Source of the DNA: Acidobacteriaceae bacterium
Lineage (GTDB): Bacteria; Acidobacteriota; Terriglobia; Terriglobales; Acidobacteriaceae
DNA: 64,000 nucleotides
Assembly: GCA_027452245.1 (NCBI GenBank)
Contig: DAIDGW010000090.1
Span: 19,053-83,052, forward strand
Direction: 5' to 3'
This document shows positions 26,794 to 39,729 of the stretch, one piece after another. Under the pieces are notes generated by a model, which was not told where the DNA came from, did not search any database, and was given only the letters and a program-made list of their open reading frames with translations. Numbering within the stretch: the first letter of the stretch is position 1; every line of letters starts with the position of its first letter. The position numbers and the translations under genes were made by a program.

Positions 26794-26906
26794 GGGCTTG
26801 GCCAGGGGGAAGGTGCGGTTACACAACTCCCCTAATCCGGCGGGGTTTACAGTCGTGATATCCATATTCAACGAAAGGGAAAGTATTCTCTTATTTGAGG
26901 CGAGCG

Positions 26907-28721
26907 ATGAAAACGTGTATGCAACGATGGTCTTGGGCTTTGATGATGGCGATTGCAGTGTTTTTGCAAGGCGGCCGTTTGCTGGCGCAGGACGATCAGA
27001 ATTCCGACAATGGCGCGCCGAGTGCGGAGGTTCAAAACTCGTTGCCGAATGCCGATGGGCAAGATCAGCCAGATCAAGCGGATCAGAATAGCGATCAGGA
27101 TCCGCCGGGGCGGGTGGCGGATCTCAACTATTCGCAGGGATCGATCTCGTATCGACCAGCGAATCAGGACGAGTGGATCAGCGGAGTGCCGAACGGTCCC
27201 TTAGTGACCGGAGACGATCTGTGGGCGGACGAAAGTTCCCGGGCCGAAGTACACATCGGCTCGACCGCAATCCGTATCGGATCAAAGACTGGAATCACTT
27301 TTCTCAATCTGGATGACCACACGACCCAGATCCGATTGGCGCAAGGCAAGATGATCCTGCGCGTGCGCCATGTCGATGACGACGATGCTTATGAGGTCGA
27401 TACGCCAAACTTGGCGTTCACTATCTTGCAACCGGGAGAGTACCGGTTTGATGTGGGTGAAGACGCTGCGAAGACCACCATTACGGTTTGGAGTGGCCGT
27501 GGGCGTGCGGTCGGAGGTGGCTCGTCGTACACGGTAGTGGCGCAGCAGTCGGCCGTATTCACCGGAACAGACAGCCTCAATTACGAACTGGATCAGGTTC
27601 CAGATCCTGACGACTTCGACATCTGGGCCTTCGATCGTGACAAGCACGAAGACAACTCAGAATCAGCGAATTATGTTTCCCGCGAGATGACCGGATACGA
27701 AGATCTCGACGAGTACGGCGACTGGAGCTATGTGGCGGGTTATGGTCCATGTTGGAGGCCGTATATGGTCGGTGCAGGCTGGGCCCCGTACCGCGTGGGA
27801 CGATGGGCGTTCGTTGCTCCATGGGGATGGACCTGGGTCGGGGGTGAACCTTGGGGCTTCGCGCCTTACCACTACGGACGCTGGGCATTTGTCGGAGGCG
27901 GATGGTTCTGGGTCCCGGGACCGGCTGTAGTGCGCCCTGTTTGGGCACCGGCGCTAGTGGCATGGGTTGGTGGTCCGGGGTTCCGTGTCGGAGTGGGTGC
28001 CGGAGTAGGGTGGTTTCCGCTGGCTCCGGGCGAAGTCTATATTCCCGCCTATCGGGTAAGCCGGGCCTACGTAAACAACGTCAACGTGACGAATACCAAC
28101 GTTAGCGCGACGCGGATCACCAATGTTTACAACACCACGGTGATCGATCGCAACACCACCGTGAATCGAGTTGCGTACGTAAATGAGCATGTGAATGGAG
28201 GAGTGACAGTTGTATCGCATGACACGTTCGTGAATGCGCGTCCGGTAGCTCAGAACGTTGTGCACGTCGATCAGCGGCAATTGCAAGCAGCGGCGCCAAC
28301 GACGCGTTTTTCCCCGGCTCAACCGGTGCGCGCGAGTGTTCTGGGGGGCGAACATCCGGCCGCAGTAAAGCCGCCGGCATCGGTGATCAATCGTCAGGTG
28401 GTTGCTGAAAGAATGCCCCCGCGGGCCTTCTCGCAAGGCGGAAGTGGGGGGAACCAGACCGTCCGAGTAGAGACTGGGCCCACCCGTCCGGCGCCGGTCC
28501 AGGACGGAGCACATCCGTTGGCGCGGCTGCCTCAGGGTCAACAGCGGGAAGAAGCGCAGAACGTGCGAGTGCGACCAGCGCCTCCGGTGCAATCGAATCC
28601 GCAGCAGGAGCAACAAAAGGCGCAGAAGTTCCGCAAGTGGCAGCAAAAGCGCCAGCCTGCGAGTCGCCAGCAGCGTTCGAGTCCGGCACCACGCGGAGGA
28701 GGCGGATATAGAGGACATTGA
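26907..28721 (+). CDS. exported FecR/DUF6600 tryptophan-rich protein (paralogue 1)
   Basis: The start at ATG 26907 has GAGGCG just upstream; 604 residues. A signal peptide (to about residue 28, LLAQ-DDQ) is followed by an acidic Asn/Asp/Gln linker. A FecR-like beta domain spans about 70-190 (VNTPNL-type IQLAQGKMILRVRHV). Then comes a Trp/Gly/Tyr-rich DUF6600 stretch with repeated YGRWAF, GWTWVGGEPWGFAPYHYGRW and WVPGPAVVRPVW units. The C-terminal 200 residues are Pro/Gln/Arg-rich and low complexity. It is probably periplasmic or surface-associated; molecular function is unknown. A paralogue lies at 32391 in the same orientation. Confidence 0.85.
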   Translation: MKTCMQRWSWALMMAIAVFLQGGRLLAQDDQNSDNGAPSAEVQNSLPNADGQDQPDQADQNSDQDPPGRVADLNYSQGSISYRPANQDEWISGVPNGPLVTGDDLWADESSRAEVHIGSTAIRIGSKTGITFLNLDDHTTQIRLAQGKMILRVRHVDDDDAYEVDTPNLAFTILQPGEYRFDVGEDAAKTTITVWSGRGRAVGGGSSYTVVAQQSAVFTGTDSLNYELDQVPDPDDFDIWAFDRDKHEDNSESANYVSREMTGYEDLDEYGDWSYVAGYGPCWRPYMVGAGWAPYRVGRWAFVAPWGWTWVGGEPWGFAPYHYGRWAFVGGGWFWVPGPAVVRPVWAPALVAWVGGPGFRVGVGAGVGWFPLAPGEVYIPAYRVSRAYVNNVNVTNTNVSATRITNVYNTTVIDRNTTVNRVAYVNEHVNGGVTVVSHDTFVNARPVAQNVVHVDQRQLQAAAPTTRFSPAQPVRASVLGGEHPAAVKPPASVINRQVVAERMPPRAFSQGGSGGNQTVRVETGPTRPAPVQDGAHPLARLPQGQQREEAQNVRVRPAPPVQSNPQQEQQKAQKFRKWQQKRQPASRQQRSSPAPRGGGGYRGH

Positions 28722-32109: not shown

Positions 32110-32390
32110 GTTCCGCTCGTCCGGGAGCACAGGAGCGAAACCTCGGGCGCGCCTGCGTCCAAGGCACCACAAATCAAATCGGGTAACAACCCGACCTGCG
32201 CCAATAGTAGGTGGCTGAAAAGCACCAGTCTGGCTGAAGGCGGCCATTTTCATCCGGCAGGCTACTTCCCTCCCTTCCAAGCTGTGCCCCTGATCACTGA
32301 AAACACGCGACTTATAGTCAGACCCATCTTCGGACTTTGGCATGAGATTTGCCGATACGTTGCTCGGTACACCAGCGGTCCGAGGTGGGT

Positions 32391-34787
32391 ATGAAAAGCA
32401 AAGTCCTGTCGCAATTGGCAATGGTGATTCTGGCGCTGGCGAGCGTGTTGAGTCTGAGTGCGATGGCACAGACAACGGATGACGGGACCGGGCCATCGGA
32501 GCAGCCGGACGCCCCTCTCGAAACGGCCCAGCCGGCACCTCCGCAAGCCAATGCAGAGCCTCCTGCGGCGAATGCACAAAATCCGGCCGAGCAGCCTCCC
32601 ACAGACATGCCTTCCGGCGAAAAGCCGGCCGAATCCGACCAGGGCGTCGGAAGAATCAGCTTTATTCATGGAGATGTTTCAACTCAACGAGGTGACTCAC
32701 AGACGTGGTCGGCAGCAGCGCTGAATGCTCCGCTGGTAGGTGGAGACAAGGTTTCGACTGGCAACGATGCTCGTACTGAAGTTCAACTGGACTTCGCGGA
32801 TGTCCTTCGAGTAGGGCCGAATTCGGAAGTAAATGTTCCGACTCTGACCAAGAAGAGCATACAGATCCAATTGGCGCAGGGCATTCTGGATTTCTCGCTG
32901 TCGAAGGACGGCGAAGCGGAGCCTGAGATTGATACTCCGAACGTTTCGGTGCATCCAGCGCATCACGATGGTGTATTTCGCATCGAAGTGCGACCCGATG
33001 GCGACACCGTGGTCATCGTGCGCAAAGGCGAGGCGCAGATTTCAACCCCGCAGGGCGCAACCGAGGTGCAGTCGGGCGAAATGGCCACGGTACGGGGAAC
33101 GAGCGACGAAGCGCAGTACAAGATCTCGGAGGCTCCGGAGCGCGACGATTGGGACCAGTGGAATAGCGAGCGCGATCACATTATTCAGAACGCACAATCG
33201 TATCGTCACACGAATAAATATTATGTTGGCTCGCAGGATCTCGATACGTATGGCCGTTGGGAGAACGCACCCGATTATGGAAATGTGTGGGTTCCCAATG
33301 AGCCCGAGGGCTGGGCTCCGTACCGCGATGGCAACTGGGTCTGGGAACCGAGCTACGGCTGGACTTGGGTGGGTTATGAGCCATGGGGATGGGCCCCGTA
33401 TCACTACGGTCGTTGGATGTGGTACGGCGGGGCATGGGCGTGGTGGCCGGGGCCGGTGCTGGGAGTAGGTTTCTATCGTCCGTTCTGGGCTCCAGCCTAT
33501 GTGTCGTTCTTCGGATGGGGTGGCGGCTTCGAGTTCGGATTTGGCTTCGGCGCCGGCTGGGGGGGATGGGGTGGGTTCGGATGGATGCCGATTGGGCCGT
33601 GCGACCGCTTTTATCCGTGGTGGGGCGGCTACCGCGGGCACTTCGGCTGGTATGGATACAACCGCTGGGGCATGTATAACCGCGGTGGTTTCGCGCCCTT
33701 ACATGCGGGTATGCGTTATTCCAACCTGGCGCACATCAATGATCCGCATATCGGCAGGGCGATGTCCACGATGGGCGCCAACCGGTTTGGAACGCATTCG
33801 ACAGCGATGGCAGCCAGTTCGGCGCAGATCCGCGGTGCGCGCGTGATGCAAGGCAACATTCCTGCCATGCCGACGCGGGCGAGTTTGTCGGCAAGTGGAA
33901 GAGCGGCGGCACCTTCGACAATACGCAACACCGGAGCGCAGCACTTCTTCGGAAATTCGAACAACGCTGCGCGCCCGGCGTCGTTTTCGCAAGAAACGGC
34001 GCACTTGCAGCAATCGTTCAACAGGAGCCACGTGTCTCCAGCATATTCAGGTGGACGGGGCGCAGCGAATATGAGTGGTGAGCGGGCGGCGGGGAATTTC
34101 ACAAAGCCGACTGCCGGAGCTGGCGGTGCAGGCAGAGCGGCAGTCGGAAATGGAACGAATAGCGCGCGATCGCCGGGCAATACGGCGGCGAATCGCGGCG
34201 GCTATCGTCCATTCAATGCGCCCAATGGTAATAACAGCCGTTCCGGATATTCGGGCAATACGGCCAGTCGTTCTGGATGGTCGAATACGGCACCGCAGCG
34301 CAGCCCATCGGGTGCGGGAAATTATCGTCCATTCACACCCCCGAGCAGCAGCACTCGCTCGGGATGGTCGAACACCGCGCCCCAGCGCAGTTCAAACTTC
34401 TCGCGCGGGTCGAGTACCGGGAATACAAATGGATTCCGGTCGTTCAGTCCCCCATCGGGCAGCGGTTCTGGCAATTCGAATCGAGGTGGGAGTACGAATT
34501 ACTGGAATCGCACGGCTCCGAGTTCGTATCCCAATCGTGGGGGATATAGCGGTGGCGGGTATGGTCGTCCGCAGTTGAACATGCGGCAACCGGTGGTACA
34601 GCCGCGATCGTACGGTAACTACGGACGGGGATCGTATGGTGGCGGCCGGAGCTACGGCGGGTATGGCTCCCGGCCGTCCGGCGGCTTCGGTGGAAGCCGC
34701 GGCGGGTCTGGCGGAGGTGGACATAGCTTCGGGGGTGGCGGACACGGAGGCGGTGGCGGGCATTCTGGCGGTGGCGGACATCGATAG
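32391..34787 (+). CDS. exported FecR/DUF6600 protein (paralogue 2) with Gly/Ser/Asn-rich tail
   Basis: The start at ATG 32391 (MKSKVLSQLAMVILALASVL) gives 798 residues with a signal peptide ending AMAQ-TTD. A Pro/Ala/Glu linker and a FecR-like domain (about 85-235, IQIQLAQGILDFSLS) precede the DUF6600 Trp-rich region, with WVPNEPEGWAPYRDGNW, GWTWVGYEPWGWAPYHYGRW and a near-pure Gly/Trp/Phe segment. From about residue 480 the protein is Asn/Ser/Gly-rich with short repeats (SGWSNTAPQRS twice) and ends in GGGGHSGGGGHR. It is longer than paralogue 1 but has the same domain order. Probably envelope or surface; function unknown. Confidence 0.85.
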   Translation: MKSKVLSQLAMVILALASVLSLSAMAQTTDDGTGPSEQPDAPLETAQPAPPQANAEPPAANAQNPAEQPPTDMPSGEKPAESDQGVGRISFIHGDVSTQRGDSQTWSAAALNAPLVGGDKVSTGNDARTEVQLDFADVLRVGPNSEVNVPTLTKKSIQIQLAQGILDFSLSKDGEAEPEIDTPNVSVHPAHHDGVFRIEVRPDGDTVVIVRKGEAQISTPQGATEVQSGEMATVRGTSDEAQYKISEAPERDDWDQWNSERDHIIQNAQSYRHTNKYYVGSQDLDTYGRWENAPDYGNVWVPNEPEGWAPYRDGNWVWEPSYGWTWVGYEPWGWAPYHYGRWMWYGGAWAWWPGPVLGVGFYRPFWAPAYVSFFGWGGGFEFGFGFGAGWGGWGGFGWMPIGPCDRFYPWWGGYRGHFGWYGYNRWGMYNRGGFAPLHAGMRYSNLAHINDPHIGRAMSTMGANRFGTHSTAMAASSAQIRGARVMQGNIPAMPTRASLSASGRAAAPSTIRNTGAQHFFGNSNNAARPASFSQETAHLQQSFNRSHVSPAYSGGRGAANMSGERAAGNFTKPTAGAGGAGRAAVGNGTNSARSPGNTAANRGGYRPFNAPNGNNSRSGYSGNTASRSGWSNTAPQRSPSGAGNYRPFTPPSSSTRSGWSNTAPQRSSNFSRGSSTGNTNGFRSFSPPSGSGSGNSNRGGSTNYWNRTAPSSYPNRGGYSGGGYGRPQLNMRQPVVQPRSYGNYGRGSYGGGRSYGGYGSRPSGGFGGSRGGSGGGGHSFGGGGHGGGGGHSGGGGHR

Positions 34788-34944: not shown

Positions 34945-35670
34945 TTGCTTACCTCTTCCGAATCTGATCGCCTCCGCGTGGTTCTGGTGGAAGCGCGCAA
35001 TCCGCTGAACATCGGCGCGGTGGCGCGCGCCATGAGCAATTTCGGATTCACGAAGTTACGGGTGGTCAATCCGTATGAAGTAGCTTTTCGCGAAGCACGA
35101 TCTGCCATGGGCGGCGCTGGAGTCCTGGAGCAGGCGACAGAGCACAACTCGGTTGCGGATGCAGTCTCGGACTGCACACTGGTGGTGGGCACTACGGCGG
35201 TGCGGCATAGGCAACTGATGCACCCTCTGCATTCTCTGAGCGAAGCGGCGAAACTGATGCGAGCGGAATTGCACTCGGAAAATGTGGCGCTGTTGTTCGG
35301 CTCGGAGAAATTTGGGCTCTCAACCGCCGATTTGAGCTATTGCCATTGGGTGCTACACATTCCCACGCACAAGTCGAATCTCTCCATGAATCTTGGGCAG
35401 GCAGCGGCCGTCTGTTTATACGAATTGATGAATGCTTGCAGGGATTTACCTCGGAAAAAGTCGAGCAAGCGGGTGACGGCAGCGCAAACGGAGCGATTGA
35501 GCGAAACACTGCTAGATGCGCTTCGTATCAGCGGCTATGTTAAAGACAGGACAAAACGTTCAACGGAAGAGAAAGTCAGGCGTCTGGTGCGCCGGCTGGA
35601 TCTCGAACCAGAAGATGCGGAAGTGATGTTGGGGATGCTGCGTCAGATCGTGTGGAAGTTGAAAACCTGA
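34945..35670 (+). CDS. trmJ: TrmJ-family RNA 2'-O-methyltransferase (SPOUT)
   Basis: 241 residues of the SpoU/TrmH superfamily with the deep trefoil knot. The three motifs are EARNPLNIGAVARAM near the N-terminus, ALLFGSEKFGLS in the middle and IPTHKSNLSMNLGQAAAVCLYE. The C-terminal helical extension is typical of TrmJ, which methylates position 32 of tRNA anticodon loops. The start is TTG at 34945; no better start lies close. It is a single gene between the terminator at 34858 and a convergent pseudokinase gene. Confidence 0.88.
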   Translation: MLTSSESDRLRVVLVEARNPLNIGAVARAMSNFGFTKLRVVNPYEVAFREARSAMGGAGVLEQATEHNSVADAVSDCTLVVGTTAVRHRQLMHPLHSLSEAAKLMRAELHSENVALLFGSEKFGLSTADLSYCHWVLHIPTHKSNLSMNLGQAAAVCLYELMNACRDLPRKKSSKRVTAAQTERLSETLLDALRISGYVKDRTKRSTEEKVRRLVRRLDLEPEDAEVMLGMLRQIVWKLKT

Positions 35671-35679
35671 ACTTGCCTA

Positions 35680-37026
35680 TTAGCGCCGTTCCTGCTCAGG
35701 GAACACCTGGGTTCCATTCCGAGTGAACTGGAAGCGCAGGAGCCAAACGCTCGGAGTGGACTGTCCATCGGATTGCGGTGGGCTGAACTCCCATCTCTCG
35801 GCGGCGCGTTCGGCGACTCCAGCGAAATAGTGGCTAGGGCCGGGAGACGTAAGTTTTTCTGAGGCCACTTTGCCCCTCGAATCGACGTTGACTCGCACTG
35901 CTACCTTGATTTTTCCGTGGATCGTATGGCGCGCACTCCGGGGAACATCGGGCAGAAATTGATGGAGCACAGCGCCTTCCTTGTTGGCCCGATTCATCGG
36001 AGCGGCGGGTTCCGGCTGAGGAGAAGGCGGTTGTGAGGTTTGAGGTTCTGCCGGAGTAGAGACGGAAGCTGTCGAATCGCGGGCTATCCGAAATGAGCGG
36101 AACGCCAGAATCGCCACGACCAGCAGAACAATGCAGACCGCCAGAATGACGAAGGGACGTGAGCGATTCGCGGATTCGGGAACACCGGCGTTTCCAGGGG
36201 AAGATCTGGCGGCAGCCGGTGCAGATCTTGCGGGAGTTGCCGGTTGTTTTCCCTGAAGAATCGCTGAAATATCCGACAACTTGCAGCGTGTTTCAGGGTC
36301 CTTGCGCAGACACTCACGGGCGAGAGTCTGAAAGGGCTCCGGCAGGCTCTTTGGGACTTGAGCATCGCCGGAGGAATCAAGTTGCGGAGGCCACTGAGTG
36401 AGCGCGGCGACAATCGTGGCGCCTATTCCCCAGATGTCCGACGCTGCAGAGAACTTGCCAGAAAGTGCTTCAGGCGCATTGTAGGGACTTGGATTTATAA
36501 GAGGCGCCCTAGGGCTCGAAGCCTTGCGCACAGAATCTGTCGAGAGCTTGATGCGGTCGCCAGCTGCGCGGATATTGGACGGGCAAATACGGCCATGAAC
36601 AAAGCCTCGTTCATGTAAATACAGCAGCGCATCAAGAGTCGGCTGCAGAAATTCGCGGGTTTCGGCGGGAGTCAGCGCACGCTGCGGGAGGATTTGCGAG
36701 AGGTCCTCATCCGCAAATTCCATAACGACGTAAATCAGCTTTGCGCCATCAAGTTCGCAAGGGCCGCTCTCGAGAATTTGAATGAGGTTGGGGTGTGAGA
36801 GGCGGGACAACTCGCGGAGACTGGAAAGGCGCTCATCTGAAGCGGTGTCTTGGGCAACGAGTTTGATCGCGGCCGGGCGCGGTTCGGACCCGGAAAGTTG
36901 TGTTTCGAATGCGGCGCTATGGTCCGAGCTCCCAAGCCAACGCATGAGCCGGTATTTTTGGGCGACGATTCGGCCTGCCCAATTTTTCGAGTTCGACAAA
37001 ACAGTCAATTCTGGAGAGTCATCCAT
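35680..37026 (-). CDS. membrane pseudokinase fused to a TonB-C-like domain
   Basis: From ATG 37026 (MDDSPELTVLSNSKNW), 448 residues. Residues about 20-270 fold like a Hanks kinase. The Lys of AAIKLVA is kept, but the catalytic loop reads HGRICPSNI (no Asp after HxR) and the Mg loop reads KLSTDSV instead of DFG. It is therefore predicted inactive. A Pro/Ser/Ala linker and one transmembrane helix (VILAVCIVLLVVAILAF) follow. The periplasmic C-terminus (GKIKVAVRVNVDSRGKV ... AERAAERWEFSPP) matches the TonB C-terminal/energy-transducer fold. It lies 85 bases downstream of the KdpD kinase half on the same strand. Confidence 0.88.
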   Translation of the reverse strand: MDDSPELTVLSNSKNWAGRIVAQKYRLMRWLGSSDHSAAFETQLSGSEPRPAAIKLVAQDTASDERLSSLRELSRLSHPNLIQILESGPCELDGAKLIYVVMEFADEDLSQILPQRALTPAETREFLQPTLDALLYLHERGFVHGRICPSNIRAAGDRIKLSTDSVRKASSPRAPLINPSPYNAPEALSGKFSAASDIWGIGATIVAALTQWPPQLDSSGDAQVPKSLPEPFQTLARECLRKDPETRCKLSDISAILQGKQPATPARSAPAAARSSPGNAGVPESANRSRPFVILAVCIVLLVVAILAFRSFRIARDSTASVSTPAEPQTSQPPSPQPEPAAPMNRANKEGAVLHQFLPDVPRSARHTIHGKIKVAVRVNVDSRGKVASEKLTSPGPSHYFAGVAERAAERWEFSPPQSDGQSTPSVWLLRFQFTRNGTQVFPEQERR

Positions 37027-37111: not shown

Positions 37112-38554
37112 TTAAGCGACTGGAAGCGAGAAATAGAACACGGAGCCGCGTCCAAGCTGGCTTCTCACGCCGATGGTGCCGCCGTGCAGTTCTACAATTG
37201 CCTTGGCAATGGCAAGGCCCATTCCGGTGCCTTGCACGTTGGCGCGCTGGGTGCGACCACGATAGAAGCGCTCGAAGATCATGTCCTGTTCCATCTGCTC
37301 GATGCCAGGGCCACGGTCAGCGACGCTGATGACGACATCTCCTCCCAGCCGAAGTTCCGCGATGATGATGATGGGCGTGTCAGGCGGCGAGTATTTCGCT
37401 GCGTTTTCGATGAGATGTACCAGGACCTCGCAGATACGGTCGGCATCCATCCGAACCGAGGGCAGATTATCTGGGACCTTGATTTCCAGCGGATGCCGCT
37501 GCAGAACCATGCGCGACGATTGCACGGCGGCGTCGATAGGCTCGCGCACGGCATGCAATTCAAAATGCAACTCGAGTTGATGAGAGTCAAGCTGCGCGAC
37601 TTCAGCGGCTTCTCCGATGAGACGGTTCAGACGGTCGCTTTCCTCGTTGATGACCGTGAGCAACTCTTTGCGCTGATCGGGCTGGAGAGAACTGCTGGAA
37701 AGCAGGGTTTCCGCCGAGGCCTTGATAGCGGTGAGTGGGGTACGAAATTCGTGGGTGACGGAATCCAGAAGGACGGAGCGGAGGCGCTCACTTTCGCGTG
37801 CGGCATCGGCATGCGTGAGTGTTTCGACTGTCTGTGCACGTTCAATAGCAATGGCGGCAAGGCTCCCGATAGCTTCGAGAGTTTCGCGGGATAAGGTGCA
37901 ATTTCCCAGAGCGATGGCGCCGACAGAGCGAACTCCCATGCGCAGGGGCATGAAGCAAATGCGATTGTCGCGGTCAAGAACAGGCTCTCCACGCACGCTG
38001 ATGGCAGTTAACTGGTCCATGGGGAATTGAGTTTGACTGGCGATATCGAAGAAATAGGCCTGTTTCCCATCGACATACATCGCGGCAGTGCTGACTCCAA
38101 AATTCTCTACGATGAAACGCGGAATGGAGTTCAGCAAGCCGTAAACATTGTCACTGGCCAGAAGTTGCTGACTGAAAGAGTAGAGGCGTTCCACCTCGTG
38201 ACGCCGTTGGTTGGAAGCTACCGCTTCTCGCCGGGCGCGCTCCGACAATTGACTGCCTACAACGGCAGTGAAAAGAAAGGCAAACAGTGCGATCCAGTTT
38301 TGCGGGTCGGCAATCGTAAACTGGTAGAGTGGTGGCAGAAAAAAGTAGTTGTAGCAAAGCGTTGCCAGCAGCGCCATGAAGATGGCGTAACGAAGTCCCC
38401 AAATGGTCGACACTATCAGTACGACCAATAAAAAGGTAAATCCGACGGTCGTGGGATTTACATGCAGCCAGCGGGAATACAGAAACGTGATGCAGGAAAC
38501 GACGATGGCGCAGGCGGTGAATAGTGATATCTGGTAAAGTGTCGATCGTTTCAC
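37112..38554 (-). CDS. KdpD C-terminal half: DUF4118-GAF histidine kinase (split KdpD)
   Basis: 480 residues that match the second half of KdpD only. The four-helix DUF4118 membrane domain is at about 8-102 (LRYAIFMALLATLCYNYFFLPP). A GAF-like domain spans about 120-250, and HisKA has His268 in SVTHEFRTPLTAIKASAE. The ATPase motifs are ENAAKYSP, DRGPGI and GTGMGLAIAK. The N-terminal KdpD and Usp domains are missing here but are encoded by the divergent gene at 38608. It begins with its own Met and no fragment of the N-terminal half, so this is a genuine separate gene and not a frameshift. It is the K+/turgor-responsive kinase for KdpE (inference). Confidence 0.93.
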   Translation of the reverse strand: MKRSTLYQISLFTACAIVVSCITFLYSRWLHVNPTTVGFTFLLVVLIVSTIWGLRYAIFMALLATLCYNYFFLPPLYQFTIADPQNWIALFAFLFTAVVGSQLSERARREAVASNQRRHEVERLYSFSQQLLASDNVYGLLNSIPRFIVENFGVSTAAMYVDGKQAYFFDIASQTQFPMDQLTAISVRGEPVLDRDNRICFMPLRMGVRSVGAIALGNCTLSRETLEAIGSLAAIAIERAQTVETLTHADAARESERLRSVLLDSVTHEFRTPLTAIKASAETLLSSSSLQPDQRKELLTVINEESDRLNRLIGEAAEVAQLDSHQLELHFELHAVREPIDAAVQSSRMVLQRHPLEIKVPDNLPSVRMDADRICEVLVHLIENAAKYSPPDTPIIIIAELRLGGDVVISVADRGPGIEQMEQDMIFERFYRGRTQRANVQGTGMGLAIAKAIVELHGGTIGVRSQLGRGSVFYFSLPVA

Positions 38555-38607
38555 TGGCCGATTTTAGCTGATCCGTCAATCCGGTATCCGATGTCGAGCG
38601 AAACGTG

Positions 38608-39729
38608 ATGCCTAAAACACCAGAGCAGTGGCTGGAGGAAGCAGCACCGCAGAAAAAGAAGGGCATTTTCAAGCTGTTTCTCGGCTATGCACCTGGTGTG
38701 GGCAAAACCTACAACATGCTCAGCGAAGGGATTCGCCGCAAGGGCCGGGGTGAGGATGTGGTGATCGGCATTGTCGAAACCCACGAGCGACAGGGCGTGC
38801 GGGAACTGAGCTCAAAACTGGAAACTGTCCCGCGGCGCGATCTGACCTACAAGGGAACCGCGTTTGAAGAGATGGACGTGGACACCATCCTGGAGCGGCA
38901 TCCGCAGGTTGTTCTGGTGGATGAATTGGCCCACACCAACGTGGAGGGCAGCAAACACACCAAGCGATATGAGGACGTGATGGAGTTGTTGGATGCCAAT
39001 ATTGACGTGCTCTCCACCATGAATGTGCAGCATATCGAGAGCCTGATGCCGATGGTGCACAACATCACTGGAATTCGGGTGCGGGAGACCGTGCCGGATT
39101 GGGTGATGCAGCGGGTTACGGAAATTGTGCTGGCCGACCTTACGCCTGAGGCACTGCAAACGCGGATGAAACGTGGAGATATTTATCCGTTGGAGCGGGC
39201 GGACCGCGCGCTGAGCAACTTCTTTCGTCCGGCCAACCTGATTGCCCTGCGGGAGATCGCGCTGCAGCAGGTGGCGCATGCCGTGGACCGCAGTCTCGAG
39301 ACTTATCTCGAAAAAGAAGGAGCAGCACGAAGAGTCGGAGTCCAGGAACGGATCGCAGTCTGCGTCAGTTCAAGTCCTGCGGCGCAATATCTGATTGCGC
39401 GGGCGGGGCGCATGTCCCAGCGGATCGATGCGGAGCTGTTCGTAATTTACGTCGATACGGGAGTGGACGGGAACCCTGACGATCAGCGATCCCTAGCCCA
39501 AAACCTTCAGTTCGCAAGAAATCTGAACGCGCAAATTGTACGGGTGCCGGGCAAAAGCGTGGCAGAAGAAGTGGCGAAGGTCGTGCGCGACAAGCACATC
39601 ACACAGGTCGTGTTCGGGCGGTCGGCACAAACGGGATGGCGACGTTATCTTTACCTTTCAGTAATTCACAAATTTCTGCGCGATGCCCCGCCGATCGACG
39701 TGCACATTGTCACCCAGGAAGTGAAGTAG
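38608..39729 (+). CDS. KdpD N-terminal half: KdpD sensor plus universal-stress domain (split KdpD)
   Basis: 373 residues comprising the KdpD input domain with Walker A GYAPGVGKTYNML (26-38), the conserved VDELAHTNVEGSKH and NVQHIESL, and a universal-stress-protein-like domain (about 250-370: RIAVCVSSSPAAQYLI, VFGRSAQTGW). It stops where full-length KdpD would enter its membrane segments. GTG at 38605 and ATG at 38608 are adjacent; the ATG is preferred. It is separated by about 53 bases from the divergent kinase half and followed 2 bases later by kdpE, so it is co-transcribed with the regulator. It probably modulates the separate kinase in trans (inference). Confidence 0.93.
   Translation: MPKTPEQWLEEAAPQKKKGIFKLFLGYAPGVGKTYNMLSEGIRRKGRGEDVVIGIVETHERQGVRELSSKLETVPRRDLTYKGTAFEEMDVDTILERHPQVVLVDELAHTNVEGSKHTKRYEDVMELLDANIDVLSTMNVQHIESLMPMVHNITGIRVRETVPDWVMQRVTEIVLADLTPEALQTRMKRGDIYPLERADRALSNFFRPANLIALREIALQQVAHAVDRSLETYLEKEGAARRVGVQERIAVCVSSSPAAQYLIARAGRMSQRIDAELFVIYVDTGVDGNPDDQRSLAQNLQFARNLNAQIVRVPGKSVAEEVAKVVRDKHITQVVFGRSAQTGWRRYLYLSVIHKFLRDAPPIDVHIVTQEVK

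Follow-up and report, generated by a model that had tools for sequence, protein, structure and literature searches.

The window, that is, the whole stretch of 64,000 nucleotides of Acidobacteriaceae DNA that was analysed, contains a complete gene for a single-pass membrane protein in which a degenerate kinase fold is joined to a TonB C-terminal (TonB_C) domain. The gene, its parts and its immediate neighbors are as follows:

34945..35670, plus strand: trmJ, a SpoU-family RNA methyltransferase gene, convergent to the pseudokinase gene
35680..37026, minus strand: complete open reading frame of 448 aa, pseudokinase, transmembrane (TM) helix and TonB_C (translation, Pfam, orthologs)
35686..35973, minus strand: TonB_C-like domain, predicted to be periplasmic, residues ~352-447 (profile, Pfam, structure model)
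36082..36156, minus strand: TM helix, residues ~291-315 (AF2, hydropathy)
36259..36975, minus strand: kinase-fold (pseudokinase) domain, residues ~18-256 (Pfam, AF2, Foldseek)
36529..36549, minus strand: degenerate DFG region KLSTDSV, residues 160-166, with K160 and D164 conserved in TonB and SPOR types
36574..36597, minus strand: degenerate catalytic loop HGRICPSN, residues 144-151, with R146 in place of the catalytic Asp
36862..36864, minus strand: codon of K55, the VAIK lysine (AAIKLV; alignment)
37112..38554, minus strand: kinase half of a split KdpD, 85 bp upstream of the pseudokinase gene and on the same strand

The reading frame starts with ATG at position 37026 and ends with a stop codon at 35680-35682. 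The bilobal kinase fold of the Hanks-type superfamily was recovered by Pfam (Pkinase, 4.6e-19), by AF2, with pLDDT mostly above 90 in this domain, and by Foldseek, with a TM-score to PknB of 0.77 by target length. The model of the window protein, made with 56 family sequences, has a mean pLDDT of 87.6 and places a helix (292-315) between two confident domains; hydropathy likewise gives one hydrophobic helix only (residues 291-309, mean 3.24). In Pfam, TonB_C fell just below the cut-off of 24.6 bits when the whole protein was scanned (5.6e-5, 23.9 bits) and above it when the C-terminal part was scanned alone (4.2e-6, 27.6 bits), and it was matched in 43/43 orthologous C-termini. The C-terminal profile matched TonB chains in the PDB (E 5e-7). 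The C-terminal domain was modelled separately, the full-length Foldseek search being swamped by kinases, and the top PDB match of this model was the E. coli TonB-CTD, 1xx3 (TM-score 0.78 by target length, rmsd 2.3, Foldseek E 1.1e-3). The TonB_C fold of a TonB transducer is thus present by profile, Pfam and structure. The initial annotation, which had described a pseudokinase with the loop HGRICPSN and the DFG region STDSV, joined by one membrane helix to a TonB-C-like domain, is borne out in all of these parts. The predicted topology places the kinase part in the cytoplasm and the TonB_C domain outside.

Kinase motifs were counted in an alignment of 85 TonB-type sequences and 27 sequences of a sister clade that ends in a SPOR domain. 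The HRD Asp of active Ser/Thr kinases is missing from 80 of the 85 TonB-type and from all 27 SPOR-type sequences, and is replaced by Arg or His in most TonB-type sequences. Five TonB-type sequences keep it (L145, L164, L168, L169 and L206); these combine an HGDLKPAN-like loop with a degenerate DFG and may be intermediate between kinase and pseudokinase, or may have regained the residue. The DFG motif of active kinases is absent as well, the region reading STDSV in the window and K-x-S-x-D across the family, with the DFG Gly missing in the TonB type. The initial statement that DFG is lost holds for the motif, but an Asp in this region, D164, is conserved in 84/85 TonB-type sequences (one Glu) and in 27/27 of the SPOR type; when the protein is aligned to PknB with HMMER, this Asp falls one residue away from the DFG Asp. 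G-loop glycines 2 and 3 are mostly Ser in the TonB type, and Ser or Ala stands where the alpha-C Glu is usual, with a Trp two residues on in 79/85. Residues E103, H138, D197 and R247 of the fold core are invariant in the TonB type although the HRD Asp is lost, so the fold has been kept without the catalytic base. Also retained are the VAIK Lys K55 (83/85, the remaining two being gaps), the loop Asn N151 (84/85), the APE Glu E186 (82/85) and the alpha-F Asp (85/85).

Because Lys, Asn and Asp are kept while the catalytic base and the alpha-C Glu are lost, nucleotide binding is possible in the TonB type, and the near-invariance of K55, N151 and D164, which goes beyond what pure docking requires, leaves room for weak catalysis. 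The protein might then bind nucleotide and act as an enzyme, perhaps with weak or unusual catalysis, that phosphorylates or otherwise changes a target under the control of its outer domain; this reading is improbable but serious, at roughly one in five. K55 would pair with D164, which would replace the missing alpha-C Glu, as suggested by the Ser or Ala at that position and the Trp beyond it, and N151 and D164 would bind metal; a comparable salt bridge occurs in DYD pseudokinases (PMC12599244). The retained E186 and the five sequences with HGD also fit such an enzyme. The loss of the HRD Asp, the G-loop glycines and the DFG Gly speaks against it, as does the state of the sister clade described below.

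About 55 full-length orthologs with 36-49% identity were found in the first 150 related genomes searched. Orthologs are present in most of 44 other genomes of the genus and also in other Terriglobia. A scan of GTDB contigs gave 80 loci, nearly all labelled as acidobacterial MAGs, including Candidatus Sulfotelmatobacter; the few odd taxon labels probably reflect mis-binned or mislabelled contigs. When 199 genomes were drawn evenly from the phylum, 16 gave a strong match, and 14 of these 16 belong to the taxonomic family of the source. By these ortholog counts, loci and the phylum draw, the pseudokinase family is real, old and restricted to this lineage of soil acidobacteria; it is usually single-copy. 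No dedicated model for it exists in NCBIfam.

The distant homologs L097 and L098 share the N-terminal start W-x-[DE]-[YFIL]-E-[GS] and consist of a more decayed kinase part, a TM helix and a SPOR domain. When L097 was searched against 150 genomes of the family, 79 gave matches, with one orthologous place per genome, and 27 had the SPOR type. No genome among the 150 carried both types, within the limit of nine candidates scored per genome. SPOR (PF05036) was called by Pfam in 9/25 at E <0.01 (best 1.2e-6), several others lying just below the cut-off; the SPOR start motif W-x-V-[IV]-[AV]-[YFW]-T-[YF] is present in 27/27 SPOR-type sequences, where the domain follows the TM helix as in SPOR-domain proteins. 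The kinase parts of this type were found by the TonB-type profile at E ~1e-37 to 3e-46. In a maximum likelihood tree of 112 kinase domains, made by a quick search with SH-aLRT support and without bootstrap, 85 TonB-type and 27 SPOR-type domains were split by a single branch (SH-aLRT 100), so one domain exchange, in either direction, suffices; the midpoint root served for drawing only. The exchange of TonB_C and SPOR on one orthologous pseudokinase is a new observation, and it is the SPOR type that has the more decayed kinase part: the VAIK Lys is lost in 27/27 (R or S), N151 is mostly lost and the activation segment is usually lost, whereas K-L-[RS]-x-D and the alpha-F Asp are kept. An orthologous clade thus does without catalysis, which weighs against the enzyme.

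SPOR domains bind denuded glycan strands, i.e., peptidoglycan stripped of peptides (PMC6895207), and the position of TonB_C is therefore one in which a wall-binding domain can substitute. Since orthologs carry SPOR at this very place, the most likely role of the outer module is to tie the pseudokinase to the envelope or to sense the envelope.

The helix motif of TonB has the form S16xxxH20. In E. coli, H20 is required for the working contact of TonB with ExbD, and TonB(H20A) fails to crosslink (PMC11658791). This SxxxH motif for ExbB/ExbD coupling is absent from the TM helix of the window protein and from 84/85 TonB-type sequences, yet it is present (SISCH) in L211, another TonB_C protein of the source genome. 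The outer-membrane porin of the locus, which the protein had been suggested to energize, is a BBP2/OmpL-like barrel without a match to a TonB-dependent receptor or plug, and that suggestion was dropped. A role as an energy transducer of the TonB type for an outer-membrane transporter would fit the TonB_C domain and the topology, but it was rejected as very improbable on the TM motif and the porin type, and replacement by SPOR makes no sense for such a role.

A receptor that reads outer-membrane transporters is unlikely rather than negligible. Its TonB_C domain would bind a TonB box or another periplasmic partner, and the transporter state would be relayed inward via the pseudokinase. The TonB fold is retained, and the source genome, with 22 TonB_C matches, encodes GAF-TM-TonB_C proteins (L209:1600-2988, L210:1098-2528) and a receiver-like-TM-TonB_C protein (L212:1891-3582), so TonB_C is repeatedly the outer end of signalling-type proteins there. 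However, the neighborhood of the pseudokinase gene contains no TonB-dependent receptor, the family has DVP or DVS where TonB has its YP motif, so that the tyrosine is not kept, and SPOR can replace TonB_C.

The KdpD kinase half adjoins the pseudokinase gene on the same strand, as first described. It belongs to a split KdpD (37112-39729) with a sensor/Usp half on the plus strand and a DUF4118-HisKA-HATPase half on the minus strand, the two being divergent with ~50 bp between them; the best NCBIfam match of the sensor/Usp half is a KdpD-like non-kinase model, below its cut-off. Neighboring genes were compared in 58 loci and the window, ~57 loci having readable upstream DNA. The kdp genes adjoin the pseudokinase gene in 2/~57 loci, the window and G011 (L039; L099 is the same locus in GTDB), and in none of the compared loci of other genera, although the KdpD sensor gene is present in 35/37 genomes of the genus examined. 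In G014, G026 and G031, kdpD shares a contig with the pseudokinase gene at a distance of 23-31 kb; elsewhere in the genus it is far off or on other contigs. The proposed functional link to kdp failed this co-occurrence test, which had been set in advance, and the conserved kdpD/kdpE linkage of a Kdp regulatory system is lacking in all but these two loci. Since kdpD is common in the genus yet rarely adjacent, the adjacency is a local accident. A role as accessory to the split KdpD/KdpE potassium system would account for the gene order in the window and G011, and perhaps for the kdpD genes on the same contig in the three genomes named, but this role was rejected on synteny and is very improbable.

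Convergent trmJ is the usual neighbor (~40 loci), within the genus only, and was taken as local synteny rather than a functional tie. Near trmJ lie two large FecR-like, Gly/Trp/Tyr-rich proteins (26895-28721 and 32349-34787) with a mutual identity of 32%, one of which is conserved beside trmJ in several relatives. The upstream genes are variable (aminotransferase, zinc/iron-chelating, CHAT/TPR, DUF1326, glucoamylase, Crp) and share no theme, so the genomic context gives no pathway. A shared upstream operon was rejected, apart from a CarboxypepD_reg protein (cluster 25) of 740-765 aa in ~10 genomes (L040:6893-9187 and similar), which is encoded on the same strand 40-210 bp ahead of the pseudokinase gene, is itself preceded by a conserved protein of ~670 aa and may form an operon with the pseudokinase gene in this subgroup. 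Matches to anti-phage defence systems in PADLOC were generic kinase matches.

The preferred reading, with a probability of about one half, is a Terriglobia membrane pseudokinase that links the envelope to the cytoplasm. Its one helix would cross the inner membrane, and the outer domain (TonB_C in this protein, SPOR in the sister clade) would dock on or sense peptidoglycan or a partner associated with peptidoglycan or the outer membrane. The inner kinase fold, its catalytic base lost, would offer a regulated docking site, the most likely partner being an active Ser/Thr kinase, the substrate of such a kinase, or a protein of envelope synthesis or division. The analogy with MviN makes docking or switching the best reading of a kinase fold that lacks the catalytic base. 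Points against this reading are that TonB_C is usually protein-binding, not wall-binding, that the upstream context has no shared theme, and that K55, N151 and D164 are near-invariant in the TonB type. The signalling role first proposed for the protein therefore survives as the general idea of envelope-linked signalling, strengthened by the SPOR variant, while its kdp and porin links do not. A bolder and more doubtful form of the preferred reading is an envelope receptor common to the whole lineage. The TonB C-terminal fold would have changed from transmitting energy to sensing or anchoring, and would pass the state of the peptidoglycan or outer membrane on to a pseudokinase that binds nucleotide and acts as a switch; SPOR would be an interchangeable module for reading the wall.

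Few bacterial pseudokinases are known, and most are unstudied. The family offers a natural experiment in which kinase decay and outer-domain exchange can be traced over more than 100 genomes in a single-copy family, and it gives a poorly known phylum a membrane pseudokinase that is open to experiment; it also suggests that TonB_C domains can act as envelope-binding modules outside energy transduction. Among the papers searched, none joins pseudokinase, TonB and Acidobacteria, and the only one with both 'pseudokinase' and 'SPOR domain' is a review of Corynebacterineae division.

A 2025 review of seven bacterial pseudokinase families, none with TonB_C or SPOR, mentions neither TonB, SPOR nor Acidobacteria, and none of the seven matches the present family by motif and partner domains (PMC12599244); the comparison covers these seven, and the family may sit unnamed in another group of the underlying 42-family classification. 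MviN of M. tuberculosis (ActPs3 family, PDB 3UQC) is likewise a membrane protein with a cytoplasmic pseudokinase; PknB phosphorylates its tail, which then recruits FhaA and limits peptidoglycan synthesis, so that MviN has a docking role in the control of this process (PMC12599244). In MviN, VALT stands where the beta-3 Lys is lost and Lsidhpsr where the loop motif is lost; the protein does not bind ATP and carries a carbohydrate-binding domain, whereas the window protein keeps the Lys, the Asn and an Asp and carries TonB_C. The loss of beta-3 Lys and loop Asn that defines ActPs3 is not seen in the TonB type, in which K55 and N151 are near-invariant. Degenerate Hanks-type kinases also make up the GLW, DYD, CP1, DLHK, ActPs1 and ActPs2 families. 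Of these, GLW and DYD are membrane-associated like the window protein, and DYD also lacks the alpha-C Glu (PMC12599244). In GLW, however, L/W replaces the beta-3 Lys (PMC12599244), and DYD has a beta-3 Arg and the DYD motif, where the window family has Lys and S-x-D. CP1 and DLHK have no TM helix and a COG3899 or helicase partner, unlike the window protein with its TM helix and TonB_C.

EssB/YukC of type VIIb secretion has a single-TM topology. It resembles the window protein as a pseudokinase in a membrane protein (PMC9600267), but it belongs to a Firmicutes secretion operon and has no TonB_C. PknB, the nearest active kinase fold in the PDB by profile, and other PASTA kinases similarly join a wall-sensing outer domain to the kinase by one TM helix; PknB has HRD, DFG and PASTA repeats, whereas the window family lacks these motifs and has TonB_C or SPOR. 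The C-terminal domain of TonB itself has the same fold (1xx3), but in the window family this fold is fused behind a kinase fold, its TM helix lacks SxxxH and the YP tyrosine is not conserved. By its architecture the family belongs among the transmembrane bacterial pseudokinases.
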